In this document: piece after piece, positions 36,545 through 51,409 of the stretch
Layout of the letters: each line of letters starts with the position of its first letter
Numbering within the stretch: the first letter of the stretch is position 1
Origin: Nitrospirota bacterium
GTDB taxonomy: Bacteria; Nitrospirota; Nitrospiria; Nitrospirales; Nitrospiraceae
DNA: 64,000 nucleotides
Direction: 5' to 3'
Assembly (NCBI GenBank): GCA_030645475.1
Contig: JAUSMA010000069.1
Location: 372,001 to 436,000 of the forward strand
Translations under genes and position numbers: made by a program
The notes under the pieces: generated by a model
Seen by the model: the letters and a program-made list of their open reading frames with translations, nothing else
Told to the model about the DNA's origin: nothing
Databases searched by the model: none

Positions 36545-37267
36545 CTAAACTGACCGATCAAACCGTTTCCTTGCACTAAACAACAAGCTTGCCAATCCGC
36601 TGCCGAACAGCCAAGCGGCGGCGGGGAGAGGGACGGGGGCCACGCTGCCGGGTACCACGGCCATGACGTTGCTGTAGGCAGGGCGTCCGGCCGTAGAATC
36701 GAAGAAGGTCCTGTTCCCGATCGTCCCGCCAAGCATGTTCGCAAAATTGACATTCGTCTCGCTGGTCAGGTCCGAGGTCCAGAAGAAAGGCGGGACGAAT
36801 TCAAACGGCGGCGCGGCACCCACCCGACCGGTGCCGAGTTGATTTAGTTGCGCAATCAGATTTTGAGCTTCCGCAGTAGTCGGTAGTCGCCAATCGGAAA
36901 CAGTTTGGCTTCCATGCTGGGACGTGAAACCGTCGGCCCAGGCAGTCGCTGCCCACCAGCTGCCCACCCACCGACCAAGCCCCGAATCATAATTGAGATC
37001 GTTGGCGGCAATCGTGTAGGGAGCGCCCAGCGAAGGCGTCACGACCGTCCCCAGGAGCGGTCCTGTATAAGGGTTGCCGGTGGGGTTGGAAGTCGAGCCT
37101 GCGACGTTATTGGTAAAGGTCAGTCCGCTGGAGAGCCAGGTCACATTGGATACGTTATCGTAGATTAGCCCATTGCCGGCATCGATCAAGGCTGCCTGAG
37201 ATGTGTCGACTAGAGTCAGAAAAATAAACAACAAGGCGATGGCCAGCGGTGTCTTCCCCTTAGACAT
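36545..37267 (-). CDS. VPLPA-CTERM protein with DUF1566/Lcl-like domain
   Basis: The 240-residue protein has a signal peptide and a C-terminal sorting tail VAPVPLPAAAWLFGSGLASL, then a basic end (FSARKRF). This is the VPLPA variant of PEP-CTERM, which exosortases cleave and transfer to the cell surface. The middle has IDAGNGLIYDNVSNVTWLSS and VSDWRLPTTAEAQNLIAQLN, as in Lcl/DUF1566 domains. I place the start at 37267, where AAAGGAG is upstream. No exosortase gene lies in this window. It sits between another VPLPA gene and the di-haem peroxidase. Confidence 0.85.
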   Translation of the reverse strand: MSKGKTPLAIALLFIFLTLVDTSQAALIDAGNGLIYDNVSNVTWLSSGLTFTNNVAGSTSNPTGNPYTGPLLGTVVTPSLGAPYTIAANDLNYDSGLGRWVGSWWAATAWADGFTSQHGSQTVSDWRLPTTAEAQNLIAQLNQLGTGRVGAAPPFEFVPPFFWTSDLTSETNVNFANMLGGTIGNRTFFDSTAGRPAYSNVMAVVPGSVAPVPLPAAAWLFGSGLASLLFSARKRFDRSV

Positions 37268-37302
37268 GTTCACTCCTTTCGATCGGATCATCAAAGAAAG
37301 TC

Positions 37303-37980
37303 TCACGACTCTGATTCCTTACGCGATTCGTCGGACGTCCGCGGCCGACGGCATCGAATACGTGCGCCGGCTATCAGCCCTGCTACGCTGCTGCCGAACA
37401 GCCAGGCGGCGGCGGGGAGGGGGACGGGGGCGACGCCGCCGCGAAAATTGCCGCCGAGAAATGCCGCGCCTTCGGTTCCGCCGTCGGTCACGCCGGGAAA
37501 TGCGAATACACTGGTGGTCGAGTAGCGCACGTCGATGACGGTGATATGAGGATCGACGAGACCGTTGCCGCCGAATAAGGCCGTCGCGAGTTCTCCCGAT
37601 AAATACGAGCCCACAATGTACTCGGTGCCGGGATTGAGGGTTGTCGGTGTGATTGAGGTAAAGCGAAAATGCCCGTCCAGCTCAGAGGCTGCTCCGGCCG
37701 CTACAGTCGCCTGCGCGAGAGGGGTGCCGCCGGATGCGAGCCAGAGCCCAACTTGGGCGGACCCGGCGAGTCCGTCTTGTCCTGAGTCGTAGACGCCCAG
37801 CGAGGTCACGGCATAGGGAGTGCTCACGGAAAATTTCCAGCCGAGCGTCCAGGGCGACCCGTCGTACTCGAAATCGATCTGCGTCAGGTTGATAGCGGCA
37901 GCCTGGGCCGGTTCGGAATAGTTTGAGACCCCCAGTATCGCTGCGAGGCAGAATGCACTGACAGACCGTGCCACAATCAT
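37303..37980 (-). CDS. VPLPA-CTERM protein with atypical extended basic tail
   Basis: The 225-residue protein has a signal peptide (SVSAFCLAAILGVSNYSEPA) and the sorting segment VAPVPLPAAAWLFGSSVAGL. After the hydrophobic stretch the tail continues for about 20 residues (RCRRPRTSDESRKESES), longer than usual for this class. The body is a beta-rich domain with INLTQIDFEYDGSPWTLGWK and GVYDSGQDGLAGSAQVGLWL. This resembles DUF4082-type or similar adhesion-like folds. CAAGGAG precedes the ATG. Function unknown. Confidence 0.82.
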   Translation of the reverse strand: MIVARSVSAFCLAAILGVSNYSEPAQAAAINLTQIDFEYDGSPWTLGWKFSVSTPYAVTSLGVYDSGQDGLAGSAQVGLWLASGGTPLAQATVAAGAASELDGHFRFTSITPTTLNPGTEYIVGSYLSGELATALFGGNGLVDPHITVIDVRYSTTSVFAFPGVTDGGTEGAAFLGGNFRGGVAPVPLPAAAWLFGSSVAGLIAGARIRCRRPRTSDESRKESES

Positions 37981-38085: not shown

Positions 38086-38124
38086 GATGGGGACGGGTTC
38101 CAGCATGACCGGTGCCCGTCCCCG
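38086..38124 (-). terminator. Candidate terminator after VPLPA-CTERM gene
   Basis: GGGGACGGG (38089-38097) pairs with CCCGTCCCC (38115-38123), flanked by GAT/ATC, with a 17-base loop. It lies just beyond the stop of the gene at 38132-38830. Confidence 0.5.
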
Positions 38125-38131
38125 ATCTTAT

Positions 38132-38830
38132 TTAGACCGTCAACCGTCGGCGCGCGAGGCCCACTAATCCGGCGAATCCGCTGCCAAAGAGCCAGAGAGC
38201 CGCAGGCACGGGAACCGGTGCCGTCGTCAATGTGGCCGAGAAAGCGTGGGAACCGGTCTGGCCGAGGGCGAACGAAGGATTCCCTCCGTAGATCAGGGTG
38301 TAGAGGCCGGGGCCGAGGACCCACTGCCTGGAGACCGCTTCCAGCCCCGTTCCGCTGGCCGTGCCGAGCGGTCCACCTCCGTTCGCCACATGATCGATGT
38401 AGGTCAAGTTCGTGGCCCAACTGATGTTCCCCGTGTTGTTAAAGGTATGATTCGTGGCATCGGAATTGACGGTTTCCAATCCTGAATAGAGGCTGAATGC
38501 AGGAAACAATTGACTGGTCCCGCCATGGCCCCGCTCCAGTTCAACGGTCAACAGGGTCGGGCCGCTGATGCCGGTGAGATCCAGCGCGCTCCAGGACGAC
38601 GTGTGGGTCCAGCCTTTGGCCCCGGCTGGATTCCCCGGTTCGGCCCAACTCTTCGCGCCGACGCTCCCATGGTAATGGGCCAGGTCGAGGTCGCTCATGA
38701 CCACCTGGGACTCGTAGGTCGCTCCGGTCTGTGGACCGGGCTCGGTGATCGTCGAGGCGTGAGACGGGGCGGCGCCGGCCAGCCACAGTCCCACAGCGGC
38801 GACGGCAAGTACTACCATGCGTGTTGTCAT
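38132..38830 (-). CDS. VPxPA-CTERM protein of unknown function
   Basis: The 232-residue protein has a signal peptide ending near SHA and a C-terminal sorting tail TAPVPVPAALWLFGSGFAGL followed by VGLARRRLTV. The body includes VVMSDLDLAHYHGSVGAKSW and LLTVELERGHGGTSQLFPAF and looks like a secreted beta-rich domain. TAGGAGG precedes the ATG at 38830. Its upstream region shares a near-identical 38-base element with the gene at 39111-39542. Exosortase substrate by tail; function unknown. Confidence 0.85.
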   Translation of the reverse strand: MTTRMVVLAVAAVGLWLAGAAPSHASTITEPGPQTGATYESQVVMSDLDLAHYHGSVGAKSWAEPGNPAGAKGWTHTSSWSALDLTGISGPTLLTVELERGHGGTSQLFPAFSLYSGLETVNSDATNHTFNNTGNISWATNLTYIDHVANGGGPLGTASGTGLEAVSRQWVLGPGLYTLIYGGNPSFALGQTGSHAFSATLTTAPVPVPAALWLFGSGFAGLVGLARRRLTV

Positions 38831-38837
38831 AAACCCT

Positions 38838-38958
38838 CCTAGATGGAAAATGGTTGCGAGGGCTAGTTCCTCGTGGGTCTACGAATAGCAAGACACTGTG
38901 GGGAGGGCTACAGATCGAAACCGATGCTTGCAACAGATGTGACGGAAAGACTCATGCG
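38838..38958 (-). promoter_or_regulatory. Duplicated upstream region, copy 1
   Basis: The stretch CCGATGCTTGCAACAGATGT with its continuation to 38958 (start 38921) differs by one base from 39635-39672. A second shared block GTTGCGAGGGCTAGTTCCT lies closer to the gene (38853-38871, versus 39569-39585). Both copies are upstream of secreted-protein genes on the same strand. It is probably a promoter or operator region that was duplicated. Confidence 0.5.
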
Positions 38959-39110
38959 TGATGTGCGGGACAGGAAAGAAAGGCGGGAGAGGCGTGAAGG
39001 GGCCGAAAAGAACGGGCTGAACGAAGGGATCAGTGGTGATCCTTCGTTCAGCCTGTTGCATGATTCAGGAATTCCTCCGCGAGTGAGCGTCGACGAAATC
39101 TGCGAGCAGG

Positions 39111-39542
39111 CTAGAGTTTCACTCCGTTGGCCGTGCCAAGTGCGCCGAACGTATTCTCCCAGCGGCCGACGAAGGACTTCTTGTTGCTGTGGAATTGCAG
39201 CTGAAAGGTGGAGACAAACGGACGGCCGAACGGCCTGAAATCCATGGTCAGTTCTGCAGAACAGTCGTCCTTGATCGTCGCGTCACCGATAAATTGGAGA
39301 CCGGTTAATGGATTCCCTTGGTCGTCCGTCAACGAAAAATCGCACTTGCCTTCGACCTTCCCATGCTCGATCTCGAATTTGCAGACGCCGGAATGGGGAT
39401 TCTTCAGCACTTCCGCCTGATAGGAGACCCACTGACCTTTGAGGTCCCGTTTCTGGCAACGGCCGTCCTGTTCGTAGAAGGCCTGTGCCTGGCTGCACAG
39501 AATGATCAAAACGGCGGTAATCGAAAACAGCATGCGTCGCAT
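39111..39542 (-). CDS. Small secreted protein of unknown function
   Basis: The 143-residue protein has a signal peptide (MLFSITAVLIILCSQAQA) and a beta-rich body with four to five Cys (GRCQKRDLKGQWVSYQ, SGVCKFEIEHGKVEGKCDFS, DDCSAELTMDFRPFGRP). It lacks a VPLPA tail. The ending FVGRWENTFGALGTANG looks like an extracytoplasmic lipocalin-like strand pattern, but I cannot name a family. The start at 39542 has GGAGGAC upstream. It shares its upstream region with the VPxPA-CTERM gene at 38132. Confidence 0.65.
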   Translation of the reverse strand: MRRMLFSITAVLIILCSQAQAFYEQDGRCQKRDLKGQWVSYQAEVLKNPHSGVCKFEIEHGKVEGKCDFSLTDDQGNPLTGLQFIGDATIKDDCSAELTMDFRPFGRPFVSTFQLQFHSNKKSFVGRWENTFGALGTANGVKL

Positions 39543-39559
39543 GGACGTCCTCCGTGGTG

Positions 39560-39672
39560 AAAATTGCGTTGCGAGGGTTGTTCCTTCTGTTGGTATGAAT
39601 AGCAAACCTGGTTCGATTCGACTGCCTATCGATACCGATGCTTGCAACAGATGTGGCGGAAAGACTCATGCG
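39560..39672 (-). promoter_or_regulatory. Duplicated upstream region, copy 2
   Basis: Copy of the region at 38838-38958. The 38 bases at 39635-39672 contain GCTTGCAACAGATGT and the ending GGAAAGACTCATGCG. The nearer block GTTGCGAGGGTTGTTCCTTC keeps the same distance to the start codon within a few bases. The intervening sequence has diverged, which marks the shared blocks as the functional parts. Confidence 0.5.
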
Positions 39673-39775
39673 CGACGCGAGATTCATTGACTGTTGTGAC
39701 TTTGCTCTATTACAAGGCGCTCTCGTACCTATTCATGGGGGATACATCATCGACGAGGGGTGAGGACGGGGGATT

Positions 39776-41797
39776 ATGACGAGCATACGCGTATCAATCG
39801 GTCTGGCTGTGTGGTTGGCTCTGTCCACGTTCACCACCCAGGCGCTGCCCGGCGACGGGACGATTCCCCGCGTACTCAATCCGCCGCTGACAAGTGACCT
39901 GACGAACTTGCCGGGGGACCTGCGCGGAGTGGCGGTGCCGGGCCCGGACCCGGCGAATCTTCTCCTGTACGTTAAGGACAAGCAGGCGGCGATCGCGTTG
40001 GGCAAGGCTCTGTTCTGGGACATGCAGGTGGGAAGCGACGGGATGACGGCCTGCGCGAGCTGCCATTTTCGCGCCGGCGCGGACCCGCGCTCCAAGAATC
40101 AGCTCTCGCCCGGACTCAAGCATGCGCCGAACGCCGACCTCACCTTCAAGCGGGGCGGTCCGAACTACCAGCTCACGGGCGAGGAGTTTCCGCTCACCCG
40201 GCTCGCCATTGCCGGGCAGCGAGGCGCTCTCGACCAGGCTACCGACAGCAACGACGTCGTCAGCTCACAAGGCGTCCCGTATCTCGATCAGGGCCCGGAC
40301 CCGCTGGGTTTCCAGGTAGGCCGGCTCAAGACCCGCCGAGTCGAGCCGCGGAACACGCCGTCGGTCATCAATGCGGTGTTCAACCACCGCCAGTTCTGGG
40401 ATGGCCGCGCCGAGAACGTCTTCAACGGGGTGAATCATCTGGGCGACCGGGATCCTGACGCGCGCGTGCTGGCGTCCGTGGGTGGCCGTCTCGTCGAAGA
40501 ACGGGTGGCGCTGACGAATGCGAGCCTCGCCTCACAGGCGTTGGGCCCCATCCTCAGCGAGCTGGAAATGGCGGCTCCGGGCCGTACGGTTCAGGACTTG
40601 GCGCGCGAGTTACGCCGCGGCAAGAAGATCCGTCGGCTGGGCCAGCGCGTGCATGGCACGCGGCCGCTCCAGCGCCAGCTCGTCGATCCGTCCGACAGCG
40701 TGCTGGGCCCCTTGAGCCGGTATCCGGAGAAGGGCCTCCGGGTGAAGTCGTACGATGAAATGGTGCGGGCGGCCTTTCAGGACAGCTACTGGCAGAGCGC
40801 ACAGCTCATTCGGGTGGCGGATGATGGCACGGTCTCGATCGTCGACCGGCCAGACAAGGACCGGACTACGGAGGAGTACAGGCTGCTCGAGTATAATTTC
40901 GGCCTGTTCTTCGGCCTCGCAGTGCAACTTTACGAGTCCACCCTCGTCTCTGACGAGACGCCGTGGGACCGGTTCCGTCGCGAGCACCCGGCCCCGAACG
41001 ATCAGGCCCTCAATCCCTGGACCAACGAGAAACCCGCACATATCAGCCGCTTTGCGCTCTTCGGCGCACACCTGTTCAATGACCGGACCCGCGGCCCGAA
41101 CAACCTGCGTTGCAGCAACTGCCACGAGGGCGCCGAGCTGACCGATGCCTCGGTCCGCCGGATTGCCTTGGCAGCCAACGGCCCGGTGCGCAACCGCGAC
41201 GGGAATATCATCGACAAGGGCTTCAGCAACATCGGCCTGCGGCCCACGGAAGACGACCTGGGCGCCGGAGCAAGCGACGAATTCGGCCCGCTGTCGCACA
41301 GCAAACGCCTCTTCCCGCACGGACTGCCGGCGGTATTCGACGGCGCGGCGGTGAGCAAGGGCTTCGGCGTCGAGGGCGCGTTTAAGATTCCTTCACTGCG
41401 TAACGTCGCGTTGACCGCTCCGTATTTTCACAACGGCGACACCCAGTCGCTGCGCGAGGCGGTGCTGCTCTATAGCCGCGGAGGCAACATAGCGCCGATC
41501 ACGCAAACCGATGGGACACCGATCGAGCCGCTCGGCGTCGCGAAGATGACGTCCGACGAGGCCGATGCGGTGGTGGCCTGGCTCGAATCGCTCACCGACG
41601 AGCGGGTGCGCATCGCCAGCGCCCCGTTCGACCACCCGCAACTGTTCGTGCCCAATGGCCATCGCGTGAACGAGCGCAGGAACGAACGAGGCCGGCACGG
41701 CTTCGCCGAGGACGACATGGTGGAAATCCCGATGACGGGCGCCGCCGGCGGCCCGCCGATTCCCGGCTTCCTGGAGGGGATCTTCGGGCCGAACTGA
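39776..41797 (+). CDS. Di-haem cytochrome c peroxidase/MauG-like protein, paralogue 2
   Basis: The 673-residue exported protein has haem motifs ACASCHFR (about 86-91) and RCSNCHEG (about 450-454). It shares LGKALFWDMQVGSDGMTACA, RNTPSVINAVFNHRQFWDGR and the C-terminal SLTDERVRIASAPFDHPQLF with paralogue 1 at 34589-36472. It is divergent from the small secreted gene upstream. The shared peroxidase core and the long insert suggest a common role, such as peroxide handling or oxidative modification of periplasmic proteins. GGGGG precedes the ATG. Confidence 0.88.
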   Translation: MTSIRVSIGLAVWLALSTFTTQALPGDGTIPRVLNPPLTSDLTNLPGDLRGVAVPGPDPANLLLYVKDKQAAIALGKALFWDMQVGSDGMTACASCHFRAGADPRSKNQLSPGLKHAPNADLTFKRGGPNYQLTGEEFPLTRLAIAGQRGALDQATDSNDVVSSQGVPYLDQGPDPLGFQVGRLKTRRVEPRNTPSVINAVFNHRQFWDGRAENVFNGVNHLGDRDPDARVLASVGGRLVEERVALTNASLASQALGPILSELEMAAPGRTVQDLARELRRGKKIRRLGQRVHGTRPLQRQLVDPSDSVLGPLSRYPEKGLRVKSYDEMVRAAFQDSYWQSAQLIRVADDGTVSIVDRPDKDRTTEEYRLLEYNFGLFFGLAVQLYESTLVSDETPWDRFRREHPAPNDQALNPWTNEKPAHISRFALFGAHLFNDRTRGPNNLRCSNCHEGAELTDASVRRIALAANGPVRNRDGNIIDKGFSNIGLRPTEDDLGAGASDEFGPLSHSKRLFPHGLPAVFDGAAVSKGFGVEGAFKIPSLRNVALTAPYFHNGDTQSLREAVLLYSRGGNIAPITQTDGTPIEPLGVAKMTSDEADAVVAWLESLTDERVRIASAPFDHPQLFVPNGHRVNERRNERGRHGFAEDDMVEIPMTGAAGGPPIPGFLEGIFGPN

Positions 41798-41957
41798 GGG
41801 CGCAATCGGACGGCGAGTGGCGCCTCCACCACTTCGCGCGCACTCGCGCTGCTGTCCGTGATGTGCGGCTGAGGACCCGACTGCGGCGAAGGAGAACGAG
41901 GAGTCGGGAGAGGCAGGGTGAGGGGGAAACAGCAATCCCTCATCAAGCCTGGTGCAC

Positions 41958-42308
41958 CTACTGCCAGCCGTGAACGGCGTAGCCGCGAGCCGTCAGACAA
42001 CGTTCCATTGCCTGGCGATAGGCGCCGCGCGACGGCCAGACCGGATGAGGAATATCGACCGTCCCGAGCACGACCCCGTTTGCCGTGGCTCCGAGAGGGG
42101 GAATCCACCTGGGCTGGATGCTGACGGGCGCGGCCTCGCGCACCTCGGTTCGGCAGGCGCGAAGATCCTCCGAGACGGCCGGATCATTGTCCGTTATGGC
42201 GAGGCCGTTTCGTTCAACCACTGGTTGCGGGATATGGCGAGCGGAGGAGCAGGCGGCGAGCGAACCGAGCAGCACGACTCCTAAGAGACATTGACTCGAC
42301 ATGCGCAT
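41958..42308 (-). CDS. Small lipoprotein of unknown function
   Basis: The 116-residue protein has a signal peptide with lipobox GSLAACSSA, so it would be lipidated at Cys20. The mature part is short and contains two further Cys (LRACRTEVRE and MERCLTARGYAVHG), with a final amphipathic segment PVWPSRGAYRQAMERCLTAR. No family is recognised. GAGGGG precedes the ATG. It is convergent with the peroxidase gene. Confidence 0.75.
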   Translation of the reverse strand: MRMSSQCLLGVVLLGSLAACSSARHIPQPVVERNGLAITDNDPAVSEDLRACRTEVREAAPVSIQPRWIPPLGATANGVVLGTVDIPHPVWPSRGAYRQAMERCLTARGYAVHGWQ

Positions 42309-42395
42309 AGGCCCCTCGCGGTCAACGGACCCATTCTACCTCCTCGTGCTCGAAGGGAACAACCGCGTATGCCTGTTTCCGGGCGGTATGGCCGT

Positions 42396-43958
42396 CTAGC
42401 GCACCAACAGCTCGAATGCAATGCGTTCGAGAAAATGCTTCCGGTAGGTTTCTGCTTTGCGGACTTGCCGGCTTTCAAGCGGGTTGTAGTCGTCGGTGAG
42501 GACGAAGCCGCTCCCCTCGGCAAACCGGTGCTCGTGATTCAGCAACCACTGCAGGCGGCGATCGCCGGTCTGGGGATCGATGGCCACCGGTTCGCGCGAG
42601 GCGAGGAAAATGAAATCGGTGAACTCGCTGGTGTCGGTGACGAAAGTACGAACGTGAGGGAAGAGGTCTTGCAGGGTCCGATGCACCGCCTCGACGGCAT
42701 CCGATCCCTCGCCCTGTGTAAATCCCACGTAGTTGAGGGCCAGGATCCCGCGGTCGTTCAACAGGGTGCGTAACTCGTTCAGCATCTCACGGCTGAGCAG
42801 ATGGGTCGGCTCGGAGCCTCCGGTGAAGCAGTCGTGGACGATGAGGTCGTAGCGAGTGGAGAGCGTCTTGATCTCATACCGGGCGTCCCCGACGAGGAAC
42901 AGCCCTGTCGGTTCGAAGTGAAACCATTTCCTCGCCGCGTCTGCGACGGCGGGATCGATCTCAATCGTGTCGGTCGTGACGCCTTGCGCCTTCAGGTCTC
43001 GCGCGACATGTCCGCCGCCCAATCCAATGAGTAAGGCTCGCGCGGTCTCAGGGCGAATGGCGGGCAGGAGGCTCAGGACCTCCTGGTACCCCAACAGGCT
43101 CCGATTCTGTGCATTGTCCACCGCGCTGAGGACCGAGGCATCGGAGAGGAGCAGACGGAAACCGCGCCGGTCATCGTCCACCACACGCACCCAGCCGTAG
43201 AGGGTTTCGGCTTCCGATTGCACAGTGAAGCCGTTCACCGATTCCCGAGAGCCGGCGACCCCGGACGTGGCCAGGATGCCGATGGCAAGGCCCATTCCCA
43301 CGATCACCACGCTGGATCGAGTGCGCATACGTGCGGATGATTCGTGCCAGGCGACCAGGATGGAAAGGATACCGAGCAGCAGGCTGAGTGAGAAGATGAT
43401 CGCCCTGGTTCCAAACATCGGCAACAGGAAGAATCCCAAGAGTAAGGTTCCCGCTACACTGCCGACCGTGCTGATGGCGTAGACCGTACCGGCTGCGGTG
43501 CCTACGCTGCTCAGGTCGCGCGTCGCGCGTTTGATCACGTAGGGTCCCACCATCGCCAGCGCCGTCAATGGCAGTGCGAATAATAAGAATGCGCTCGTGA
43601 AGGCGCCGGCACGGAGGCCGAGTGAGTCGGTTGCGCGGAGAATCGGCCCAGTGAGAAAGGGAATGGTGAGGGTCGTGAAGGCAGACGAAAGAATGATATG
43701 CGCCAGGCGGACTGCCGGCAATCGGTCGGCGATCAATCCGCCGAGGAAATAGCCTAAGGATAAAGCGATTAATGTGACCGCAATCAGCGACGACCAGACG
43801 TACAGGCTGACGCCGTAAAATGGGCCGATGATCCGCGTGCCGAGCAGTTCCAGGATCATCACGGCTGCGCCGGTGATGGTGACGGTCGCATAGAGGACGA
43901 GGGATGTCTGGTGCCGGGAGCGTGGCATGGCGGCGTGAACGGTCTGACTCATGGTCAT
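42396..43958 (-). CDS. Membrane-fused spermidine synthase-like protein
   Basis: The 520-residue protein has about six to eight membrane helices in the N-terminal half (VTITGAAVMILELLGTRIIG; LIALSLGYFLGGLIADRLPA) and a C-terminal spermidine-synthase-like methyltransferase fold. That fold has ALLIGLGGGHVARDLKAQGV, DTIEIDPAVADAARKWF and YDLIVHDCFTGGSEPTHLLS. Fusions of this type are common in Nitrospirota and related phyla, but their product is unknown; polyamine synthesis is not proven. I start at 43958 (MTMSQTVHAAMPRSRHQ); an ATG at 43982 adds eight residues. It sits between a lipoprotein and a VPxPA-CTERM gene. Confidence 0.82.
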   Translation of the reverse strand: MTMSQTVHAAMPRSRHQTSLVLYATVTITGAAVMILELLGTRIIGPFYGVSLYVWSSLIAVTLIALSLGYFLGGLIADRLPAVRLAHIILSSAFTTLTIPFLTGPILRATDSLGLRAGAFTSAFLLFALPLTALAMVGPYVIKRATRDLSSVGTAAGTVYAISTVGSVAGTLLLGFFLLPMFGTRAIIFSLSLLLGILSILVAWHESSARMRTRSSVVIVGMGLAIGILATSGVAGSRESVNGFTVQSEAETLYGWVRVVDDDRRGFRLLLSDASVLSAVDNAQNRSLLGYQEVLSLLPAIRPETARALLIGLGGGHVARDLKAQGVTTDTIEIDPAVADAARKWFHFEPTGLFLVGDARYEIKTLSTRYDLIVHDCFTGGSEPTHLLSREMLNELRTLLNDRGILALNYVGFTQGEGSDAVEAVHRTLQDLFPHVRTFVTDTSEFTDFIFLASREPVAIDPQTGDRRLQWLLNHEHRFAEGSGFVLTDDYNPLESRQVRKAETYRKHFLERIAFELLVR

Positions 43959-43988
43959 ATTCTCAGTCGCGAAACGAATCAAAATGAA

Positions 43989-44025
43989 GAGGGGAGCTGG
44001 CGGGATGGTCCCGCCAGCTCCCCTC
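43989..44025 (-). terminator. Strong GC-rich hairpin, terminator of the 44051 gene
   Basis: GAGGGGAGCTGGCGGGA (43989-44005) and TCCCGCCAGCTCCCCTC (44009-44025) form a perfect 17-base stem with a TGG loop. On the minus strand it is followed by TCTTCATTTTGATT. It ends transcription of the VPxPA gene at 44051-44992 and lies before the start of the spermidine-synthase-like gene. Confidence 0.75.
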
Positions 44026-44050
44026 GCCTCACCATAAATAACGTGGACGC

Positions 44051-44992
44051 TTAGCTCGCTGAGCGTCTCCGCGCCAATGCCACGATGCCGGCCAGTCCGC
44101 TGCCGAAGAGCCAGACCGCAGCGGGAATCGGCACCGGGTTGACGGAGAATGCAATGTTGAAGGTCCGAGCCAGGCGCGCGTTGTTGTATGCCGTCAACGC
44201 AGCCGAGGGCGTCGTGTAGTCCCCGTTCGTGGCCTGGGCAGCCTCGAGCAGTGCGGCCAGGTCAGCGGAATTGGCGCCGCCGACCACCAGGCTGTAGATG
44301 CCGGGGCCGAGGTCGTAATGGCCGGTAATGGTGTTGCCGGTACCGTTGGCGCCGAAGAGGCCCGTGTAGGCAAGCGTAAACGCAGCCGGCGGCCTCGCCG
44401 CATTATTGGCCGTCGCGGCAGACCCGTCATTCGCCATGGTGAAATCCCCATTAGAGCGGTACTGCCCCCAATGTTGGGTTGTCAGGGTGCCGCCGTTGTT
44501 TGTGATCGCGCTGTTCGCACTTGCGAAAGGCGACCAGCTGGCGAAGCCGGTCTGGGCTCCGATGTAGGAGGCGGGGTTAATCGCGCCGTCATGCACGGAG
44601 TTGATCGCGACGCCTTGGAAAATCGAATAACCGGGATTCAGGACACCGTTGCCGTTTGTGTTTGTGCCGGTAATCGTGAAGTCGATCGTTGAGGCTTGAG
44701 CCAGATTGAAATAGAGAAACCGGTTGTCGTGGCTATTCCCCCAGGTCGTTGCGTCTTGACCTGCCAGCCATCCGGCGTTGCTGGACACTGTCCTGTCGGG
44801 AGTCGCGTTCACAATTCCGGTACCGTATTGTGGCACATCCCCTGCGAGGAGGGGGCGGACGGGATCAATAAGAGACGAGTCCGAAAACAGAGAATTCCCA
44901 TAGCTCACATGGGCAGAGGCCTGCCCTGCTGAGAGAAATACGCCGACAGCGCCCAATAGCGCGGCGGCAGACCGGACCATCCAACGATTCAT
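44051..44992 (-). CDS. VPIPA-CTERM protein
   Basis: The 313-residue protein has a signal peptide (AAALLGAVGVFLSAGQASA) and a C-terminal tail VNPVPIPAAVWLFGSGLAGI followed by VALARRRSAS, an exosortase sorting signal. The body contains repeated small-residue beta strands, such as TIDFTITGTNTNGNGVLNPG and YDLGPGIYSLVVGGANSADL. I start at 44992, where GAGGAGGG is upstream, instead of 45025. Surface protein of unknown function, divergent from the VPxPA gene at 45791. Confidence 0.85.
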   Translation of the reverse strand: MNRWMVRSAAALLGAVGVFLSAGQASAHVSYGNSLFSDSSLIDPVRPLLAGDVPQYGTGIVNATPDRTVSSNAGWLAGQDATTWGNSHDNRFLYFNLAQASTIDFTITGTNTNGNGVLNPGYSIFQGVAINSVHDGAINPASYIGAQTGFASWSPFASANSAITNNGGTLTTQHWGQYRSNGDFTMANDGSAATANNAARPPAAFTLAYTGLFGANGTGNTITGHYDLGPGIYSLVVGGANSADLAALLEAAQATNGDYTTPSAALTAYNNARLARTFNIAFSVNPVPIPAAVWLFGSGLAGIVALARRRSAS

Positions 44993-45790
44993 AGCACCCT
45001 CCTCGGTAAAGCTGTTACGACACAATTGTCAAAAACGATGCGCTGGTATATATCGAGATGAAGAATCTCTCTACTGCTCGCTGCAACTGGTGCACCACCT
45101 GCAATAGGAAATGTTGAGCTGCCTCGAAATTTAATCTCCCCAGGGATCCGGGCCAGAGCTCAGGACCGACATCTCGTCCGTGAGCACTCGAAAAATCAAC
45201 CCGGGCATATGCGTGCAGGGGGAACATTCAATCGTGCGAATCTATACGCGCAATGGATACCATCGTCTACCGATGGTTGCTCATGATGCTACAGATGCAA
45301 CAGTTTCGATCTGGTAAGACTGCCTCACCGATGGGGACAAGGATTGCGGCCGGAAGCGGTCCCATACCGGGGGTAGGAATGTGGCAAGGTCGAGATGATT
45401 TCATAGTCCAGGACGCATTTTTCGTCACATTTGTAGCAACTGGTGCAGCGTGAGGTAGCAAGGCTTAAGGGGGGCCTGGTAAAAGTGTACCCATGATCAG
45501 GGAGCATGAGATGAATTCGAACGCAGCCTGAGAACCGACAGTAATTTTTCAATGCGGTTATTTTCTTCATTCAGAGGGAGAGGCAAGGAGGTGGCTGGTC
45601 AATGCACACAGAGACGATGGAGCAAGCGACCGGGGAATTCGTGCAGACGGATTCAACTCCAGAGGTGTTCCGTTAAATCGCGATTGGTCATAGTTGTCGA
45701 CCGGTTCGGAGCTGCGGATCACCAATGAGGACTCACCAGACCAAAAGGGTAGATCATCATCAATCGGATAGCCAATACGTGGAGCGCACC
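44993..45790. other. Long divergent spacer with repeated GCAACTGGTGCA motif
   Basis: No convincing gene lies here; open frames in the stretch are short and lack start signals. The 12-mer GCAACTGGTGCA occurs exactly at 45083-45094 and 45436-45447, once near each divergent VPxPA-CTERM gene. A related GATGCAACAG lies at 45293-45302. Related GCAACAG cores are also in the duplicated upstream regions at 38921 and 39635. The spacer probably holds regulatory sites for both genes. Confidence 0.5.
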
Positions 45791-46315
45791 ATGAACACGA
45801 AAACGAAGTTCAAGACAGTCCTTGCCTGCTTGGTCGCCGCGGGCGCACTCGCCCTGAGCGCCAACGCACAGGCCATCACCCTCGACGCGGGCATCTTCGG
45901 GCCCAACCTGGGAGATGTTGGGACTGAGACCAACAAGTTGGTCCTCAACGTCAATCCCTCAAGCGGTCTCTTTCTCGACACGATCAATTTCGATCTCGGG
46001 AATTGGACGCACTTCAACATGACGTCGACGGTCAACAACATTTCCTTTTTCGGCGCCCCCATTTTCGAGAACATCGGAGATACGGAGTTCGTGGCAGCGA
46101 GTCCCAATCATTTTTCAGTGTTCCTGCCTAATCTCGGGTTGGATCGCGATTATCACCTGCATCCGCAGGGCCTCAATGCGGGTGCCGGGAGCTACCAGCT
46201 CACGTTGTGGGGATCGAGCGCGCCGGTCCCAGTCCCTGCCGCCCTGTGGCTTTTCGGGAGCGGTCTGGTCGGGTTGGTCGGTCTCGCCCGTCGCAAGATG
46301 AGCGTGGTGGCCTAA
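45791..46315 (+). CDS. VPVPA-CTERM protein
   Basis: The 174-residue protein has a signal peptide (TVLACLVAAGALALSANAQA) and a C-terminal tail SAPVPVPAALWLFGSGLVGL then VGLARRKMSVVA. The body is beta-rich (NKLVLNVNPSSGLFLDTINF, NISFFGAPIFENIGDTEF). GGAG six bases before the ATG at 45791 supports that start over 45725. Exosortase substrate of unknown function. A terminator hairpin follows. Confidence 0.85.
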   Translation: MNTKTKFKTVLACLVAAGALALSANAQAITLDAGIFGPNLGDVGTETNKLVLNVNPSSGLFLDTINFDLGNWTHFNMTSTVNNISFFGAPIFENIGDTEFVAASPNHFSVFLPNLGLDRDYHLHPQGLNAGAGSYQLTLWGSSAPVPVPAALWLFGSGLVGLVGLARRKMSVVA

Positions 46316-46331
46316 CGACATCGGCGTCACG

Positions 46332-46364
46332 CCCAGGAAGAGCGGATCGTCCGTTCTTCCGGGG
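46332..46364 (+). terminator. Hairpin after VPVPA-CTERM gene
   Basis: CCCAGGAAGAGCGG and CCGTTCTTCCGGGG pair over 14 positions with one mismatch and one wobble, around a five-base ATCGT loop. CGTTTG follows. It lies 17 bases beyond the stop at 46315. Confidence 0.5.
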
Positions 46365-46429
46365 CGTTTGCGCGGGGCATGATTGCACACCGACGGTTTT
46401 AGGTATCAAGGAACGACGGAGAGTCTGAG

Positions 46430-47080
46430 ATGATGACTACGCCTGACAGAACAGTGAAGGGGAGCGTGATGATGCTCCTGATGGCGTCGGCGCTGTGGTC
46501 TATACCGGCTGGAGTTGAGGCTGCGAGCGTGACGCAGTTGGACATCGCCGGTGGATCGATCAGTTTGAATTTCGGATTGCTAGGGAGCGTGACTGGTCAT
46601 TTCGACGGGAACGGGCAGCTCCTCATGAACCAGTTTCAGCCGGCGCCGATTATTGTCGATCCGATTACGATTTCCCACCTCACGTTTTCGATCTTTTCGA
46701 GCAACGGGGGAGCCCTCAATCTCCCGGCTCCTACAGGGCAGACGTCCGGGGCCATCTTAACGGCGAATCTTCAATCGCTGTTCGCCGGGATGACCAACAC
46801 CGGCTGGGCGGGGTTGCTGACGGCCCCCCAGGCTTCTCCGGCGACCTCTTTCAACATCGGCGGGATTGCCACGGGATCATTCAATGAGAGTACCAACGCC
46901 TTCGATGTGTCATGGACGCGTTCGTTCACCGGGATTCCGTATCTGACGTCCGGAACGTTCTCGCTTCAAGGAACCGCCCAATTGGCGGCTGTTCCCTTGC
47001 CCGCAGCCGTTTGGTTGTTCGGCAGCGGCATGATCGGGTTGGCGGGCTTGGCCCGCCGCAAGATGAACGCGGTGGTCTAA
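46430..47080 (+). CDS. VPLPA-CTERM protein
   Basis: The 216-residue protein has a signal peptide (MMLLMASALWSIPAGVEA) and a C-terminal tail LAAVPLPAAVWLFGSGMIGL with LARRKMNAVV. The body begins SVTQLDIAGGSISLNFGLLG, which is beta-rich and glycine-rich. The in-frame ATGs at 46430 and 46433 are both possible starts. It is followed 73 bases later by the transmembrane regulator gene on the same strand, which suggests shared expression or control. Confidence 0.85.
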   Translation: MMTTPDRTVKGSVMMLLMASALWSIPAGVEAASVTQLDIAGGSISLNFGLLGSVTGHFDGNGQLLMNQFQPAPIIVDPITISHLTFSIFSSNGGALNLPAPTGQTSGAILTANLQSLFAGMTNTGWAGLLTAPQASPATSFNIGGIATGSFNESTNAFDVSWTRSFTGIPYLTSGTFSLQGTAQLAAVPLPAAVWLFGSGMIGLAGLARRKMNAVV

Positions 47081-47153
47081 TGGCTTCTGAGTGCGATCCT
47101 GGAAGGGCTCATGCGAGTGCTTCCGGGACTCTGGACAGGATGAGGCTGAACAC

Positions 47154-48575
47154 ATGATTGGGTTAAGGACCATAGTGAGTCTACGGATTATCACAGGGCT
47201 GTTCTTGCTCGGCATATTGACGATGGGAATGGCCGGCCTGTCCCATTCCGCGACCATCGGCTTCATGGAGACCGAGGGGGTCAGTGCGCCAGTTGCGCTG
47301 ATTCCTGTCTCTTTTGAAAGCGGTAACGCCCACTTTGCCTTGGCGGATGAGACATCGGCGCTTGTCGTTGGAAACACCTGGGTCTCTCACGTGCAGGCCG
47401 ATGGATTCAGCGCGATTACGCGAGCGATCCTTCACATGAGTTCCTGTGTCTGCTCCGGTCTCCGCCAGATGTGGGCATTATCCAGCCCGGTCTCGACCGA
47501 AAGCACCGCTCCGGTGAGCCCGGTTTCATCTTCGCCCTCTTCCGCGTTTCTTTTTTTTCCTGCGTTGGTCGGCATTCTGGGGGTTGCCCTTCGCGGAGAG
47601 TCATCCGTCAAGACCCTCAAGCGTGGCCATGAATGTCAATCGAACCAACTCCCCTCGACGAACTCGATGCTCATTCTGGTTCTGTCGCCCGATGCGATGT
47701 TTGGCAAGGAGACCGAGGAGCATCTCCGTCGCTTGGGCCATCCCATCCGAGTCGTTCCGTCTGTGGCGGAGGTCTTCTCTCTTGTGACCCATACAAGGGT
47801 GTCGCTGGCCTTGGTGGATCCGAGAGCGAGCGACTGGGATATGCTGCGCACCGACACCAGGCTCAAACACGTTCCCATGATGGGCTTGATTCCTCCCGGC
47901 CTTGCCTATAGCGAGGATGATTGCCAGGCTGATTTGGAGCGAGGACTAGACGGTGTCCATCTTGCGCAAGAGGGACACCGTCTTCTCATCGCAAAAGTAG
48001 GGGCGTATCTGCGGCGAGCCGGATACGACGTATCCCGGCGTGGGGTGTATCAAGTCGGGGCGGTCGAATTAGATGCGGATATTCATGAGGTCAAAGTCGG
48101 CGGGCAACGGATTCCGCTTTCGGCCAAGCCCTTTGCGATTCTCGAGGCCTTTATGCGAACCCCCTCAAAGGCTTTTAGCCGTGGGGAGTTGATCGATCTC
48201 GTGTGGGGGCCTGATTTTGCGATCGGCCATCATACGTTAGACGTGCATGTCCATGCGCTTCGGCAGGTCCTCGATCGAGACCCAAGCCGTCTCTGCCGGC
48301 TCATGACGATTAAGGGTGTCGGGTTCAAGTTGAGGTTAGCCGAACCAGTGATGGGTGCCTCGCCGGTGCCGAACACATTGCCGATGGCGGTCAACGCGTT
48401 TCCCCTTCTCCGCCCAGGAACGGCTCATGGTTCGATTGCTCCCCGCCCACTTGCGCTCGCTCCACCCTCAAGCCGGCGGACGTGCGTAGGCGCGGTCACC
48501 CGGCAACGCCGGGCTCGACCACTTCGGAACATGACGTCGGTCCGGCCTCTCCACAATGCGGTGTCGGTCGGCTAA
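47154..48575 (+). CDS. Transmembrane one-component regulator: exported N-terminus, TM helix, receiver-like and winged-helix domain
   Basis: The 473-residue protein has an N-terminal signal-like helix (IVSLRIITGLFLLGILTMGM), then SHSATIGFMETEGVSAPVAL, the look of VPxPA/PEP-CTERM proteins. After about 130 exported residues a segment SSAFLFFPALVGILGVALRG crosses the membrane. The cytoplasmic part has a receiver-like domain (SMLILVLSPDAMFGKETEEH), with Asp in LALVDPRASDWD kept but the acidic pair and Lys missing. It ends in an OmpR/PhoB winged helix (ELDADIHEVKVGGQRIPLSA, LMTIKGVGFKLRL). This is a membrane-spanning DNA-binding protein with a periplasmic sensor part. ATG 47154 is preferred. Confidence 0.8.
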   Translation: MIGLRTIVSLRIITGLFLLGILTMGMAGLSHSATIGFMETEGVSAPVALIPVSFESGNAHFALADETSALVVGNTWVSHVQADGFSAITRAILHMSSCVCSGLRQMWALSSPVSTESTAPVSPVSSSPSSAFLFFPALVGILGVALRGESSVKTLKRGHECQSNQLPSTNSMLILVLSPDAMFGKETEEHLRRLGHPIRVVPSVAEVFSLVTHTRVSLALVDPRASDWDMLRTDTRLKHVPMMGLIPPGLAYSEDDCQADLERGLDGVHLAQEGHRLLIAKVGAYLRRAGYDVSRRGVYQVGAVELDADIHEVKVGGQRIPLSAKPFAILEAFMRTPSKAFSRGELIDLVWGPDFAIGHHTLDVHVHALRQVLDRDPSRLCRLMTIKGVGFKLRLAEPVMGASPVPNTLPMAVNAFPLLRPGTAHGSIAPRPLALAPPSSRRTCVGAVTRQRRARPLRNMTSVRPLHNAVSVG

Positions 48576-49027
48576 ACCAGCGTTGATCCTTTTCCCTCGC
48601 CCTCCATTCGTGCCCCTTTCCGTGTTCTTCCGTCAGTCGGAGCCTTGCATGCATGGCTGCAGCGGCTACTGGTTTTCATTCCTAGCGTTGTCATGAATAG
48701 CATGCTTTGGCGTAGCGTCAGCGAACTGCTCGCGCAGTCGAGTCCCAGCTTAAAGCGTGAACTGATTCATCCACGCAACTGTGTAGACTGGCCCGCTGTG
48801 TTCTGTAGCTTCCGGCTGCAGGGGAGATAGACAGCCAATTCATTGAAATATAGAGAATCCTTGCGATCGCGATTCCCTTTCAATAGGGTGGCTTTCAGAA
48901 CGGCGGGTTGATTCATCGCCTATAGGGCTCATCCCCCTCGATTGCATCTCTCCCTCAGCGTCTGATGAATCAGGATGCACGGAGTACGTGAGGCGATGAG
49001 CGGGAGGAAAATCCCGTTCGACTTCGC

Positions 49028-49056
49028 TTGACTTCAATATCCCGTGAGAGTATTCG
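49028..49056 (+). promoter_or_regulatory. Candidate promoter of the SmbP-like gene
   Basis: TTGACT (49028-49033) and TATTCG (49051-49056) are 17 bases apart and 53 bases upstream of the ATG at 49109. Confidence 0.35.
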
Positions 49057-49061
49057 AGGTG

Positions 49062-49076
49062 CTCGAACAGTTCGAG
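49062..49076. promoter_or_regulatory. Palindrome overlapping the expected transcription start of the SmbP-like gene
   Basis: CTCGAA-CAG-TTCGAG is a perfect inverted repeat with a three-base centre, just downstream of the candidate -10 element. The position suits a repressor operator. The core CGAACAGTTCG is shorter than a LexA box. Confidence 0.4.
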
Positions 49077-49108
49077 TGGGTTTATTCACAATCAAGGAGG
49101 AGCGTCCA

Positions 49109-49417
49109 ATGAAGCAAGCTTGGATGACGGTTATGGCAGTAGCGGCACTTGGCCTGGGTCTCAGCCTGCAGCCGGCGGTTTCGCTGGCGGGGAAGGGTGA
49201 GGATCATACCCAGGAGGTGATCAAACATGCCAAGGAAGGGGTCACGCATACGAAGGAAGCGATCAAGCATATCGAGGAAGCCGTGAAGGGCACCGGCGAC
49301 GCGCATGCCAAAGAAGCGCTGCAACATGCGAATGAAGCGATTACTCACGCCGAAGAATCGATCGCTCATGCCGAGATGGCAGCCAAGAAGCCTGAAGGAA
49401 AGAAGAAGAGCAAGTAG
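49109..49417 (+). CDS. smbP: Small metal-binding protein, SmbP-like
   Basis: The 102-residue protein has a signal peptide (MTVMAVAALGLGLSLQPAVS) and a mature part made of heptad-like repeats rich in His, Lys and Glu: EVIKHAKEGVTHTKEAIKHI, EEAVKGTGDAHAKEALQHAN, EAITHAEESIAHAEMAAKKP. This matches the four-helix periplasmic small metal-binding protein SmbP described in Nitrosomonas europaea, which binds copper and other divalent metals. AAGGAGG precedes the ATG. A palindrome and a promoter-like pair lie upstream, and a hairpin ends the transcript. Confidence 0.85.
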   Translation: MKQAWMTVMAVAALGLGLSLQPAVSLAGKGEDHTQEVIKHAKEGVTHTKEAIKHIEEAVKGTGDAHAKEALQHANEAITHAEESIAHAEMAAKKPEGKKKSK

Positions 49418-49783
49418 GGTCCAGAGTCTAAGCCTCATACTGCCGGTGGCTTTTCCCGCCGGCAGTATTGGCAAGGTGATGAAGCAGTCTGCCGACGCCA
49501 CAGATTGTGACGAGTGCAGAGTAGATTTCTAACTCGTCTCGCTCATCCCGTCTTTCCCTCCAGTCTCGCGAACTATTGAAATTCCATCGTGCCACATAGT
49601 TCTTCCCATGATTTGCTCGACCATCCATGACCGAGGTTCACACGGGCGGTGCCATCACCTTTCCTGCCGACCTCAGCGATCGTGACCGTCTCGTCTCACA
49701 GTGACATTTGTAGCATCCGTGAGCAGGCGTCGGTAGACAGGCGATCGGTTCACGCGTATAGAAGTGACATCGTGGGGAGCTTG
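49418..49783. other. Spacer after the SmbP-like gene
   Basis: Besides the terminator hairpin at 49437-49468 no gene is seen here. A GTGACATTTGTAGCATCC stretch at 49700-49717 resembles part of the GTCACATTTGTAGCAACT site at 45424-45441. It lies about 65 bases upstream of the next gene. Confidence 0.5.
49437..49468 (+). terminator. Terminator after the SmbP-like gene
   Basis: ATACTGCCGG (49437-49446) pairs with CCGGCAGTAT (49459-49468) around a 12-base loop containing TTTTCCC. It starts 20 bases after the stop. Confidence 0.55.
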
Positions 49784-50131
49784 ATGACGCATACCGGTGT
49801 ATCACGCAGTTCCGTTCTGGTCGCAGGGCTTGTGGCCCTGGTCTATGCCTCGCTTGCGGTCATGGCGGCGACCTGCTCGTTCAATCACGCCGAAGCCTCC
49901 AGCGGCCATGCACACCATGGTTCGCAAGACGCGGCTCCGCACAATGCGCTTTGCGCCTGGGCCTGTCAGGCCACGTCCGATGCCGAGTTGGTCACGGAGC
50001 CGCCGGCCTTGTCGGTCGGTCCGGTCGCCCGGCTCGTCGTCTCCTCCCTGAATCACGTTCCCCCTCTACGTTCTTCTTCTCTGCTCCATTCCCGTGCGCC
50101 TCCGGCGATTTCCTTCATCCTGATCGGATAG
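49784..50131 (+). CDS. Small secreted His-rich CxWxC protein, paralogue 3
   Basis: The 115-residue protein has a signal peptide (SSVLVAGLVALVYASLAVMA), the His-rich NHAEASSGHAHHGSQDAAPH, the motif LCAWAC and the tail HSRAPPAISFILIG. The same plan is seen in paralogues 1 (26890) and 2 (29017). Here it precedes two HMA-like proteins and the second HTH protein. This repeats the pairing of a CxWxC protein with an excisionase-type HTH found at 29 kb. GGGGAG precedes the ATG at 49784. Confidence 0.75.
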   Translation: MTHTGVSRSSVLVAGLVALVYASLAVMAATCSFNHAEASSGHAHHGSQDAAPHNALCAWACQATSDAELVTEPPALSVGPVARLVVSSLNHVPPLRSSSLLHSRAPPAISFILIG

Positions 50132-50229
50132 GGGACCCCGGGCGGCCTGTTTCATGTCGAGGTCTCGCGCGCTCCTCAAACGATCTTCGTCGCTTGTCCA
50201 CCACATTTGACCGTAGTCGACTTTTTGAT

Positions 50230-50302
50230 GTCCGAGTCGGGCGGCCTCCTTGCTCGGACTGATCCGGGGCGCAGGTGCTTCTTCCTGTGGCCTCCGCCCC
50301 GG
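50230..50302 (+). promoter_or_regulatory. Structured leader with two hairpins upstream of HMA-like genes
   Basis: GTCCGAG (50230-50236) pairs with CTCGGAC (50253-50259). Immediately after, CCGGGGCG (50264-50271) pairs with CGCCCCGG (50295-50302), followed by TCCTTT. The second hairpin resembles a terminator and lies 35 bases before the HMA-like gene start at 50338. It could end the upstream transcript or act as an attenuator. Confidence 0.35.
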
Positions 50303-50337
50303 TCCTTTAATCGGTTTGGCTCTGAAAGGACTCTGTC

Positions 50338-50715
50338 ATGAGACGTCTGTTCATGTTTGCATTGGCCTGTTGGGTGATGACCGGTGCTGTATCGTTCGCG
50401 GGCGTGGATCAGGACAACGAATCCGTCGAATCGAAGCCGGCGGCAAGCGAAGCCATCGTCCAGATTTTCGGCCGTATGTGTGAGTACCACCGTGAAGATG
50501 TCGAGGCGGCGCTTCGTGCATTCAAGACGGTGCGTCAGGTCGAGTTCTTGAACAATCATGGCACGGTGCTGGTGCGGTATCAGCCCGGCAGCGAAACGCC
50601 GGAGGCATTAGCCGGCGCGGTGCATCGCGCGCTCGCATCGGGCTGGAATTGCTCGGCACGGGTCGACCGCGGAGCGCAGAGGCTTGAGGCCGGCCAACAG
50701 GAGGGGAAATCGTGA
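50338..50715 (+). CDS. Exported HMA-like protein, atypical metal site (1)
   Basis: The 125-residue protein has a signal peptide (MFALACWVMTGAVSFA) and a ferredoxin-like HMA-type fold: VQIFGRMCEYHREDVEAALR, AFKTVRQVEFLNNHGTVLVR and ETPEALAGAVHRALASGW. The usual MxCxxC metal motif is changed to MCEYH, a CxxH variant, and there is another Cys in WNCSARV. Its stop overlaps the next gene by four bases. Both proteins are probably periplasmic metallochaperones or modified relatives. Confidence 0.7.
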   Translation: MRRLFMFALACWVMTGAVSFAGVDQDNESVESKPAASEAIVQIFGRMCEYHREDVEAALRAFKTVRQVEFLNNHGTVLVRYQPGSETPEALAGAVHRALASGWNCSARVDRGAQRLEAGQQEGKS

Positions 50716-51014
50716 AGACCTTTGCCACGGTTGGTTGTCTGATCGGGTTTGTCTGTGCGATGGCCATCCCGGCCTTTGCGGGCGAGGAAACAATCACACT
50801 CATGCTGGGCGGCAAGTTCTGCGACGGATATGTGGGCGATGTCGAACATGCGCTCCGGCGCATGCCCGGTGTGAAGACGGTCGACTTCAAGAGTATGAAA
50901 GGCCATGCGGTGGTGACTACCGAATCCGGCAAGGTGAAGCCGGAGCAACTCGCCGCGGCCATCAATGGTGTGAAGGGCGAGAGCTGGTATTGCACGGGCG
51001 AGGTCATGAAGTGA
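50712..51014 (+). CDS. Exported HMA-like protein, atypical metal site (2)
   Basis: The 100-residue protein starts at a GTG overlapping the previous stop (GTGA). It has a signal peptide (VGCLIGFVCAMAIPAFA) and an HMA-like fold (ITLMLGGKFCDGYVGDVEHA, LRRMPGVKTVDFKSMKGHAV). One Cys replaces the CxxC motif, and a second Cys is near the end in WYCTGEV. It is a paralogue of the protein at 50338. The shared W-x-C end suggests that the two Cys act together. Confidence 0.7.
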   Translation: MKTFATVGCLIGFVCAMAIPAFAGEETITLMLGGKFCDGYVGDVEHALRRMPGVKTVDFKSMKGHAVVTTESGKVKPEQLAAAINGVKGESWYCTGEVMK

Positions 51015-51098
51015 GGGGACGCTATGAATGTAGCGCGCGGATGTGAATGGACGGCGGACCGGGGTTTGGGGTGGCTTGACCGGCCTTCCTCCAAGCCC

Positions 51099-51132
51099 GG
51101 TGGGGGAGCTGCCTCTCGGCAGCTCCCCCACC
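51099..51132 (+). terminator. Perfect 15-base hairpin between HMA-like and HTH genes
   Basis: GGTGGGGGAGCTGCC (51099-51113) and GGCAGCTCCCCCACC (51118-51132) form a perfect stem with a TCTC loop. No T-run follows. It may end the HMA transcript or partly insulate the HTH gene. Confidence 0.55.
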
Positions 51133-51160
51133 AGCCCACGTACTGATGCGAGGGACCATG

Positions 51161-51409
51161 ATGGAATCATCGCTGATGCGGGTGAACGACGCGGCGCAAT
51201 TGTTACGCGTGAGCAAGTGGACGATCTATCGGTGGATTGAAGAAGGGCGGCTCGGCGCGACCAAGATCGGACATGGCAGCCTGCGCGTCTTTCGCGAATC
51301 GGTCACGGCGTTGGTCGAGGCCAATCGTAAGGAGCAACCATCGGTGACTCGCTCGACTCCCCGTAAGGTGGTGCCAGTTCGTGCAGCAGGCCCGAATAGG
51401 AGAAGCTGA
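51161..51409 (+). CDS. Excisionase-type helix-turn-helix protein, paralogue 2
   Basis: The 82-residue protein has LMRVNDAAQLLRVSKWTIYR then WIEEGRLGATKIGHGSLRVF, the same fold and near-identical recognition helix as paralogue 1 at 29550-29864. Only the first 50 residues are conserved; the tail is basic. I chose ATG 51161 for the AGGGA five bases upstream; in-frame ATGs at 51146 and 51158 are also possible. No integrase is near, so I infer a regulator of the metal-related genes beside it. Confidence 0.8.
   Translation: MESSLMRVNDAAQLLRVSKWTIYRWIEEGRLGATKIGHGSLRVFRESVTALVEANRKEQPSVTRSTPRKVVPVRAAGPNRRS

Follow-up and report, generated by a model that had tools for sequence, protein, structure and literature searches.

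To our knowledge, the regulation of exosortase-sorted surface proteins has been worked out only for Proteobacteria, where it involves sigma-54 and PrsK/PrsR. The PEP-CTERM genes of Proteobacteria have sigma-54 sites together with PrsK/PrsR (PMC1569441; PMC9850573), and the elements described there upstream of CTERM genes were reported for Proteobacteria only (Haft et al. 2006; PMC1569441). The PrsK/PrsR/PrsT system resembles the one described here in that a conserved element upstream of CTERM genes matches the distribution of a regulator (Haft et al. 2006; PMC1569441), but PrsR is a sigma-54 activator with a histidine kinase, whereas we found an OmpR-type membrane regulator, no recognised kinase and a different element. 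PrsR (TIGR02915) has no match above cut-off in the genome studied here, and the regulator itself has a different domain architecture from PrsR and no sigma-54 interaction domain.

In regulators of the ToxR/CadC type, an N-terminal winged-helix DNA-binding domain (wHTH) is followed by a transmembrane (TM) segment and then by a periplasmic C-terminal part. Our window, the whole stretch of 64,000 nucleotides that was analysed, encodes at 47154..48575 (+ strand, 473 aa, ATG start) a regulator that likewise appears to be a one-component, single-pass inner-membrane protein with a cytoplasmic OmpR-type winged helix (Trans_reg_C) and an exported part, all three elements being predicted within one protein. 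Its order, however, is signal peptide, exported part, TM segment, pseudo-receiver and wHTH, so that the DNA-binding domain is C-terminal in the predicted architecture, the reverse of ToxR/CadC, as an earlier note on this DNA had proposed. Also unlike ToxR/CadC, a pseudo-receiver lies between the TM segment and the wHTH, and the TM segment seems to derive from an exosortase sorting signal. Atypical orphan OmpR/PhoB regulators of the HP1043, RitR and GlnR kind also combine an incomplete phosphorylation site with a C-terminal DNA-binding domain, and atypical-regulator structures (2hqr, 5u8k and 8hih) are among the structural matches of the regulator, but proteins of that kind are soluble, whereas here the receiver is tethered to a membrane-anchored exported part. 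VPLPA-CTERM/PEP-CTERM proteins (TIGR03370, TIGR02595) share with the regulator a signal peptide and a CTERM-type helix, but a CTERM is normally the end of its protein, whereas in the regulator about 320 cytoplasmic residues come after it.

The frame begins with a signal peptide (residues 1-33, 47154..47252, +; cleavage site SHSA/T) whose hydrophobic stretch has a KD value of 2.0; homologues are predicted to be cleaved at similar positions (e.g. PSHAA and PAQAA), and an in-frame GTG upstream at 47091 is a less likely start. It continues with a fast-evolving exported part of about 95 residues that is predicted to be disordered (residues 34-124, 47253..47525, +), a degenerate CTERM-derived TM segment (residues 125-149, with the TM helix at 131-149; 47526..47600, +), a pseudo-receiver (residues 171-288, 47664..48017, +), an OmpR/PhoB winged-helix DNA-binding domain supported by both profile and fold (residues 298-396, 48045..48341, +) and a disordered Arg-rich C-terminal tail that is conserved among close orthologues (48342..48572, +). 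The sole Pfam match is PF00486 Trans_reg_C at residues 317-393 (9e-18), with a score of 64.5 bits against a gathering cut-off of 26.2 that places the domain in the OmpR/PhoB type, and two-domain OmpR/PhoB response regulators match residues ~172-395 in NCBIfam and PDB sequence searches. An NCBIfam profile search of the N-terminal part of the window protein gave no match at E<=10. An AlphaFold2 model built on a 35-sequence alignment places an N-terminal signal helix at residues 3-27 and the TM helix at 131-149, and its receiver and winged-helix domains are modelled with confidence across residues 172-396 (mostly pLDDT >90), but residues 28-122 and 406-473 are disordered and the structure of the exported part is not interpretable. 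Foldseek matches to the model are two-domain OmpR/PhoB regulators, some of them phosphorylation-independent, and the winged helix matches the PhoB effector domain 1gxp by fold. The regulator is thus predicted to be a single-pass membrane protein with an exported N-terminal part and a cytoplasmic DNA-binding end; the intact 473-aa frame and the fold support bear out the earlier proposal of a membrane-spanning regulator with all of its parts in a single reading frame.

The pseudo-receiver keeps D222 but has lost the acid pair, Thr and Lys. The same is true of all 23 fused receivers that we compared, in which only the Asp is retained, whereas the canonical paralogues of the comparison set retain the acid pair, Thr and Lys. 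The full set expected of a phosphorylation-dependent response regulator (acid pair, Asp, Thr/Ser and Lys) is therefore not present. No histidine kinase gene was recognised beside either the fused or the soluble class among the listed ORFs.

A fused CTERM-protein regulator is conserved in Nitrospiraceae beside CTERM genes, and a tandem DNA element follows its distribution. At least 23 non-redundant Nitrospiraceae proteins have an exported part and a TM helix in frame before the receiver; a search of 61 related genomes yielded five full-length orthologues in the genus, and the remaining relatives came from alignment searches of the genus, a phylum sample, the family and GTDB contigs. A signal peptide is present in 22 of the 23, the exception being L095, in which the upstream frame is interrupted. 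In the phylogenetic tree, four soluble members are nested among the fused proteins and two more stand beside them, so that the fused architecture is retained in 23 of 27 clade members; the neighbour of the clade is a group of 18 soluble regulators. The four soluble members indicate that some lineages can do without the membrane part. Searches of open-access papers turned up no account of a fusion of a CTERM surface protein to a regulator.

The origin of the fusion is clearest in L004 and L005, whose first 214 residues make up an entire VPxPA-CTERM protein with 66-68% identity to the product of the window gene directly upstream of the regulator (46430-47080). In L004, this exported part closes with VPVPAAVMLFGSGLFGIVGVVIRR and continues directly into the receiver. 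L098, from another clade, carries the same exported domain with 51% identity to the 46430-47080 product, and in all three loci the whole exported part is homologous to a VPLPA-CTERM protein. Four other members (L102, L105, L120 and L121) have different exported parts together with canonical VPxPx segments. The exported part evolves fast and is not alignable between subclades, and from its sequence it has apparently been exchanged ahead of the TM helix, or has diverged past alignment.

The earlier note held that the exported part begins like a VPxPA-CTERM protein. Our comparison sharpens this claim: judged by sequence, it is the TM helix itself that is a CTERM segment by descent, in degenerate form in the window protein (SSSPSSAFLFFPALVGILGVALRG, against the canonical VPVPAAVMLFGSGLFGIVGVVIRR of L004). 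The canonical VPxPA form occurs in two separate clades of fused members and is absent from soluble relatives. With a profile made from 20 C-terminal CTERM tails of these genomes, 10 of the 23 internal helices score 7.5-32.6 bits, whereas 446 control TM segments reach at most 6.3 bits once three of them are set aside as CTERM sequences or oddly placed copies (the two highest, from CTERM proteins, and one from a piece of the regulator itself). The window helix scores 3.3 bits, between the 95th and 99th control percentiles (99th = 3.7), and TIGR03370 gives no match in the N-terminal part of the window protein, in which the segment is internal and not C-terminal; for the window segment by itself this leaves CTERM descent, not membership of the class. 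Overall, the motif is weak or degenerate in 13 of the 23 members, including that of the window, with PSS in place of PAA and the Arg missing. Variants resembling P-S-S-x-x-LF-x4-L-x-G-x-L-G are found in the window protein, L002, L066, L067 and L095-L097, as well as in L099-L101, L104, L106, L107 and L109.

The surroundings of the regulator are rich in CTERM genes. A VPLPA-CTERM surface protein gene, identified by homology, ends 74 bp upstream (46430..47080, +), and in L004, L005 and L098 a homologue of its product makes up the exported part of the regulator. A YHLHP-type CTERM gene (45725..46315, +) is the first gene of the presumed operon and a divergent VPLPA-CTERM gene lies beyond it (44051..45025, -), followed by a further VPLPA-CTERM gene (38132..38830, -) and two VPLPA-CTERM-like genes below the curated cut-off (37303..37980, - and 36545..37306, -, the latter with a weak Lcl_C match). 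The count of six such genes in the earlier note is thus correct, two of them falling below the curated cut-off. The only two CTERM matches (E<=0.1) in the genome beyond these six are both in the exosortase region of another contig. The question of whether the architecture recurs beside CTERM genes in other genomes, which the same note had raised, is answered by an association: 17 of the 23 fused loci have a CTERM gene that ends immediately upstream on the same strand, as against none of 29 controls (18 soluble exosortase-locus regulators and 11 canonical regulators; Fisher p 5e-9). An Rfam search of 36000-51000 found no known RNA element.

Motif discovery in the 400-bp regions preceding ten YHLHP-type CTERM genes, each located before the regulator, yielded GTCACATCTGTAGCATCcG in 10 of 10 regions, with a score of 226 against 102-110 for shuffles. 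The new element consists of GTCACATYTGTWGCA with GTAG 22-23 bp further on. A second GTA(G) half-site at +22/23 is present in 37 of 56 sites, versus about one at other offsets, and 23 sites have a third GTA at +45 to +47, again versus about one elsewhere. Tandem sites about two helical turns apart would fit a binder of the OmpR/PhoB type, as we infer by analogy. The 3.75-Mb window genome has four sites with no more than one mismatch, all within 11 kb of the cluster: TCACATCTGTTGCAAGCA, which precedes the CTERM gene 38132-38830 by 95 bp (38925..38942, -); a site with one mismatch, ~100 bp before the probable ATG (39542) of a gene for a small secreted protein of unknown family (39639..39656, -); TCACATTTGTAGCAACTG, with GTAGCA again 22 bp on, between the divergent CTERM genes and upstream of the operon of the regulator (45425..45442, +); and a site with one mismatch upstream of a DUF2946-like gene with a likely start at 49784 (49702..49719, +). 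Of three targets suggested earlier, those at 38921 and 39635 coincide with sites, while the region at 45083 has no match to the element, which lies instead at 45425; the site at 49702 comes in addition to them.

Across 175 Nitrospiraceae genomes, sites with at most one mismatch were found in 25 of 27 genomes with a fused regulator but in only 24 of 148 without (p 1e-14), and perfect sites in 17 of 27 versus 3 of 148. The element had been derived from upstream regions of ten fused-regulator genomes, and when these are left out the counts are 15 of 17 (at most one mismatch, p 3e-9) and 8 of 17 (perfect, p 3e-7). In these co-occurrence statistics kinship is treated by a within-genus split only, and the association is significant within each of the two larger genera. 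Fused-regulator genomes are also richer in CTERM genes; among CTERM-bearing genomes only, the element is present in 25 of 27 with the fused regulator and in 9 of 49 without it. Within 23 loci, selected in part because they carry sites, 37 of the 48 sites fall no more than 600 bp upstream of a CTERM ORF start, compared with 10.4 expected by area. Two genomes (G171 and G361) have a fused regulator and no site, and one (G028, assembly 82% complete) has sites with the fused gene undetected. Both co-occurrence and location indicate that the regulator likely binds the element.

We consider it fairly probable that the window gene encodes a membrane-tethered, phosphorylation-independent regulator of a CTERM regulon, which arose when a soluble PhoB-like regulator became fused behind a surface protein. 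A soluble, phosphorylation-independent regulator of the kind found at exosortase/exopolysaccharide loci would have been joined behind a complete VPxPA-CTERM protein, the signal peptide would export the N-terminal part, and the former CTERM helix would serve as inner-membrane anchor, leaving the pseudo-receiver together with the winged helix on the cytoplasmic side. There the regulator would most likely bind the tandem element, GTCACATYTGTWGCA plus the GTAG half-site 22-23 bp on, at predicted sites preceding both CTERM genes and the operon to which it belongs, and the cell might thereby match its surface-protein output to the state of the envelope. These observations suggest that a cell's surface-coat genes are controlled by a single protein spanning its membrane; surface sensing, which the earlier note had suggested, and the exosortase as trigger are hypotheses beyond this model.

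Several other explanations bear on the fusion and on the element. If two genes had been joined by a sequencing frameshift, or if the upstream frame were never translated with the regulator, the protein discussed here would not exist as such; the earlier note had named a frameshift as the finding that would undo its proposal. An ATG at the start of the receiver (47668) favours a separate gene in the window, but this Met is missing from the orthologues, so that no internal start from which a soluble form could be made is conserved, and an identical architecture recurs in more than 20 assemblies. In addition, Nei-Gojobori dN/dS values are below 1 in the exported part, TM segment, receiver and wHTH alike (TM segment 0.07-0.45, exported part 0.08-0.72, one saturated comparison omitted), indicating that the exported part and TM segment are both translated and constrained. 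Such in-frame purifying selection, together with 23 distinct relatives that do carry the exported part fused to the winged helix, leads us to reject a chance or sequencing join, which we regard as exceedingly improbable. It is also quite improbable that the element serves sigma-54 as a promoter or PrsR as a site, in the proteobacterial manner, and is unrelated to the regulator. The spacing of GTCAC-N5-TTGCA is that of a -24/-12 promoter, and proteobacterial PEP-CTERM genes do have sigma-54 sites and PrsK/PrsR (PMC1569441; PMC9850573), but almost all element sites have GT or AT instead of the essential -24 GG, PrsK is absent from the window genome and from 13 of 20 perfect-site genomes, and the 22-23 bp repeat is alien to sigma-54 promoters. 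A plain sigma-54 pattern is, moreover, no commoner in the window than in shuffles. The change at -24, the absence of PrsK and the repeat thus disfavour sigma-54/PrsR as the owner of the element.

The role of the CTERM part admits two further readings. It may be a mere relic that serves as signal peptide and anchor, with the regulator acting at the membrane or being clipped by general proteases and no sensing by the exported part, which we regard as rather unlikely: the exported part evolves fast, cannot be aligned between subclades and is predicted to be disordered, the sorting motif has decayed in many members and soluble clade members exist, but purifying selection still acts on the exported part, few segments are more constrained than the TM segment in several pairs (dN/dS), and the architecture is kept in 23 of 27 clade members. 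Alternatively, the exosortase might cut at the internal CTERM on the outer side and release the exported part to the surface, and the shortened membrane or cytoplasmic part might then change in activity and report sorting capacity to the CTERM promoters. Such a switch is unlikely in our judgement. Some fused proteins keep the canonical VPxPA and the Arg-containing end under purifying selection, the window genome and most fused-regulator genomes have an exosortase gene, and L004 has a full-length homologue of a sorted protein as its exported part. Nevertheless, the motif is weak or degenerate in 13 of the 23 members, which makes exosortase cleavage in the window protein doubtful, and G026, although 94% complete, has a canonical fused member and no exosortase match. 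It has also been suggested that the small number of CTERMs followed by long tails might not function (Haft et al. 2006; PMC1569441). For canonical members, cleavage by the exosortase or its occupancy of the internal CTERM is a possible switch, and for that of the window a weak one, and the broader idea that the exosortase uses the CTERM in the regulator as substrate or sensor, with sorting capacity setting transcription of the CTERM regulon through a dedicated operator, seems doubtful to us. G026 has six CTERM matches without an exosortase match, which may reflect an assembly gap or a real loss.

We know of no description of exosortase sorting-status signalling of this kind. Nitrospiraceae are the family of the nitrite-oxidising and comammox Nitrospira, and our results point to a different regulator and operator for this family. 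The fusion is a natural one that places a sorting signal between surface-protein and transcription-factor parts, which makes a coupling of exosortase activity to gene expression directly testable.

The window genome also has a soluble sister of the regulator (C60:319651-320436), 14 kb from the exosortase gene and separated from it by genes for an XrtA-type ATPase and CpsD-like and Wzz-like proteins. A CTERM gene adjoins this sister, its CBS and PstS neighbours are conserved, and in G000, G012 and G030 it lies inside the exosortase/EPS cluster; the fused members L066, L067 and L130 in turn adjoin the XrtA-type ATPase and CpsD. The sister (L080, G000:C60:319651-321610) is divergently paired with a PstS-like phosphate-binding gene in many genomes, with the CBS-domain gene on its other side. 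Three clade members (L069, L070 and L123) have no TM segment or signal peptide and carry an N-terminal extension of 65-90 residues, L069 lying directly behind an apparent TonB-receptor gene.

Elsewhere in their genomes, large CTERM clusters at L175 (G102:C2:690000-709500) and L176-L178 have several copies of the element each, and by sequence these are presumed to be a set of regulon members. A perfect element at L184 (G086:C12:434450) has no CTERM gene nearby, in a genome with no fused regulator detected. In the window, two paralogous genes for MauG-type di-haem cytochrome c peroxidases, one on each strand (34589-36472, - and 39776-41797, +), flank the left CTERM group and share a 144-nt stretch that is 77% complementary, and a gene inside the CTERM cluster (42396-43982, -) encodes a multi-pass membrane protein with a weak spermidine-synthase-like domain. 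On the downstream side of the regulator, 49028-51409 encodes an SMBP-like small metal-binding protein, a DUF2946-like membrane protein, two HMA-type heavy-metal proteins and a small HTH_17 protein, and similar genes after the regulator in several relatives (L002 and L004) hint at a link to metals.
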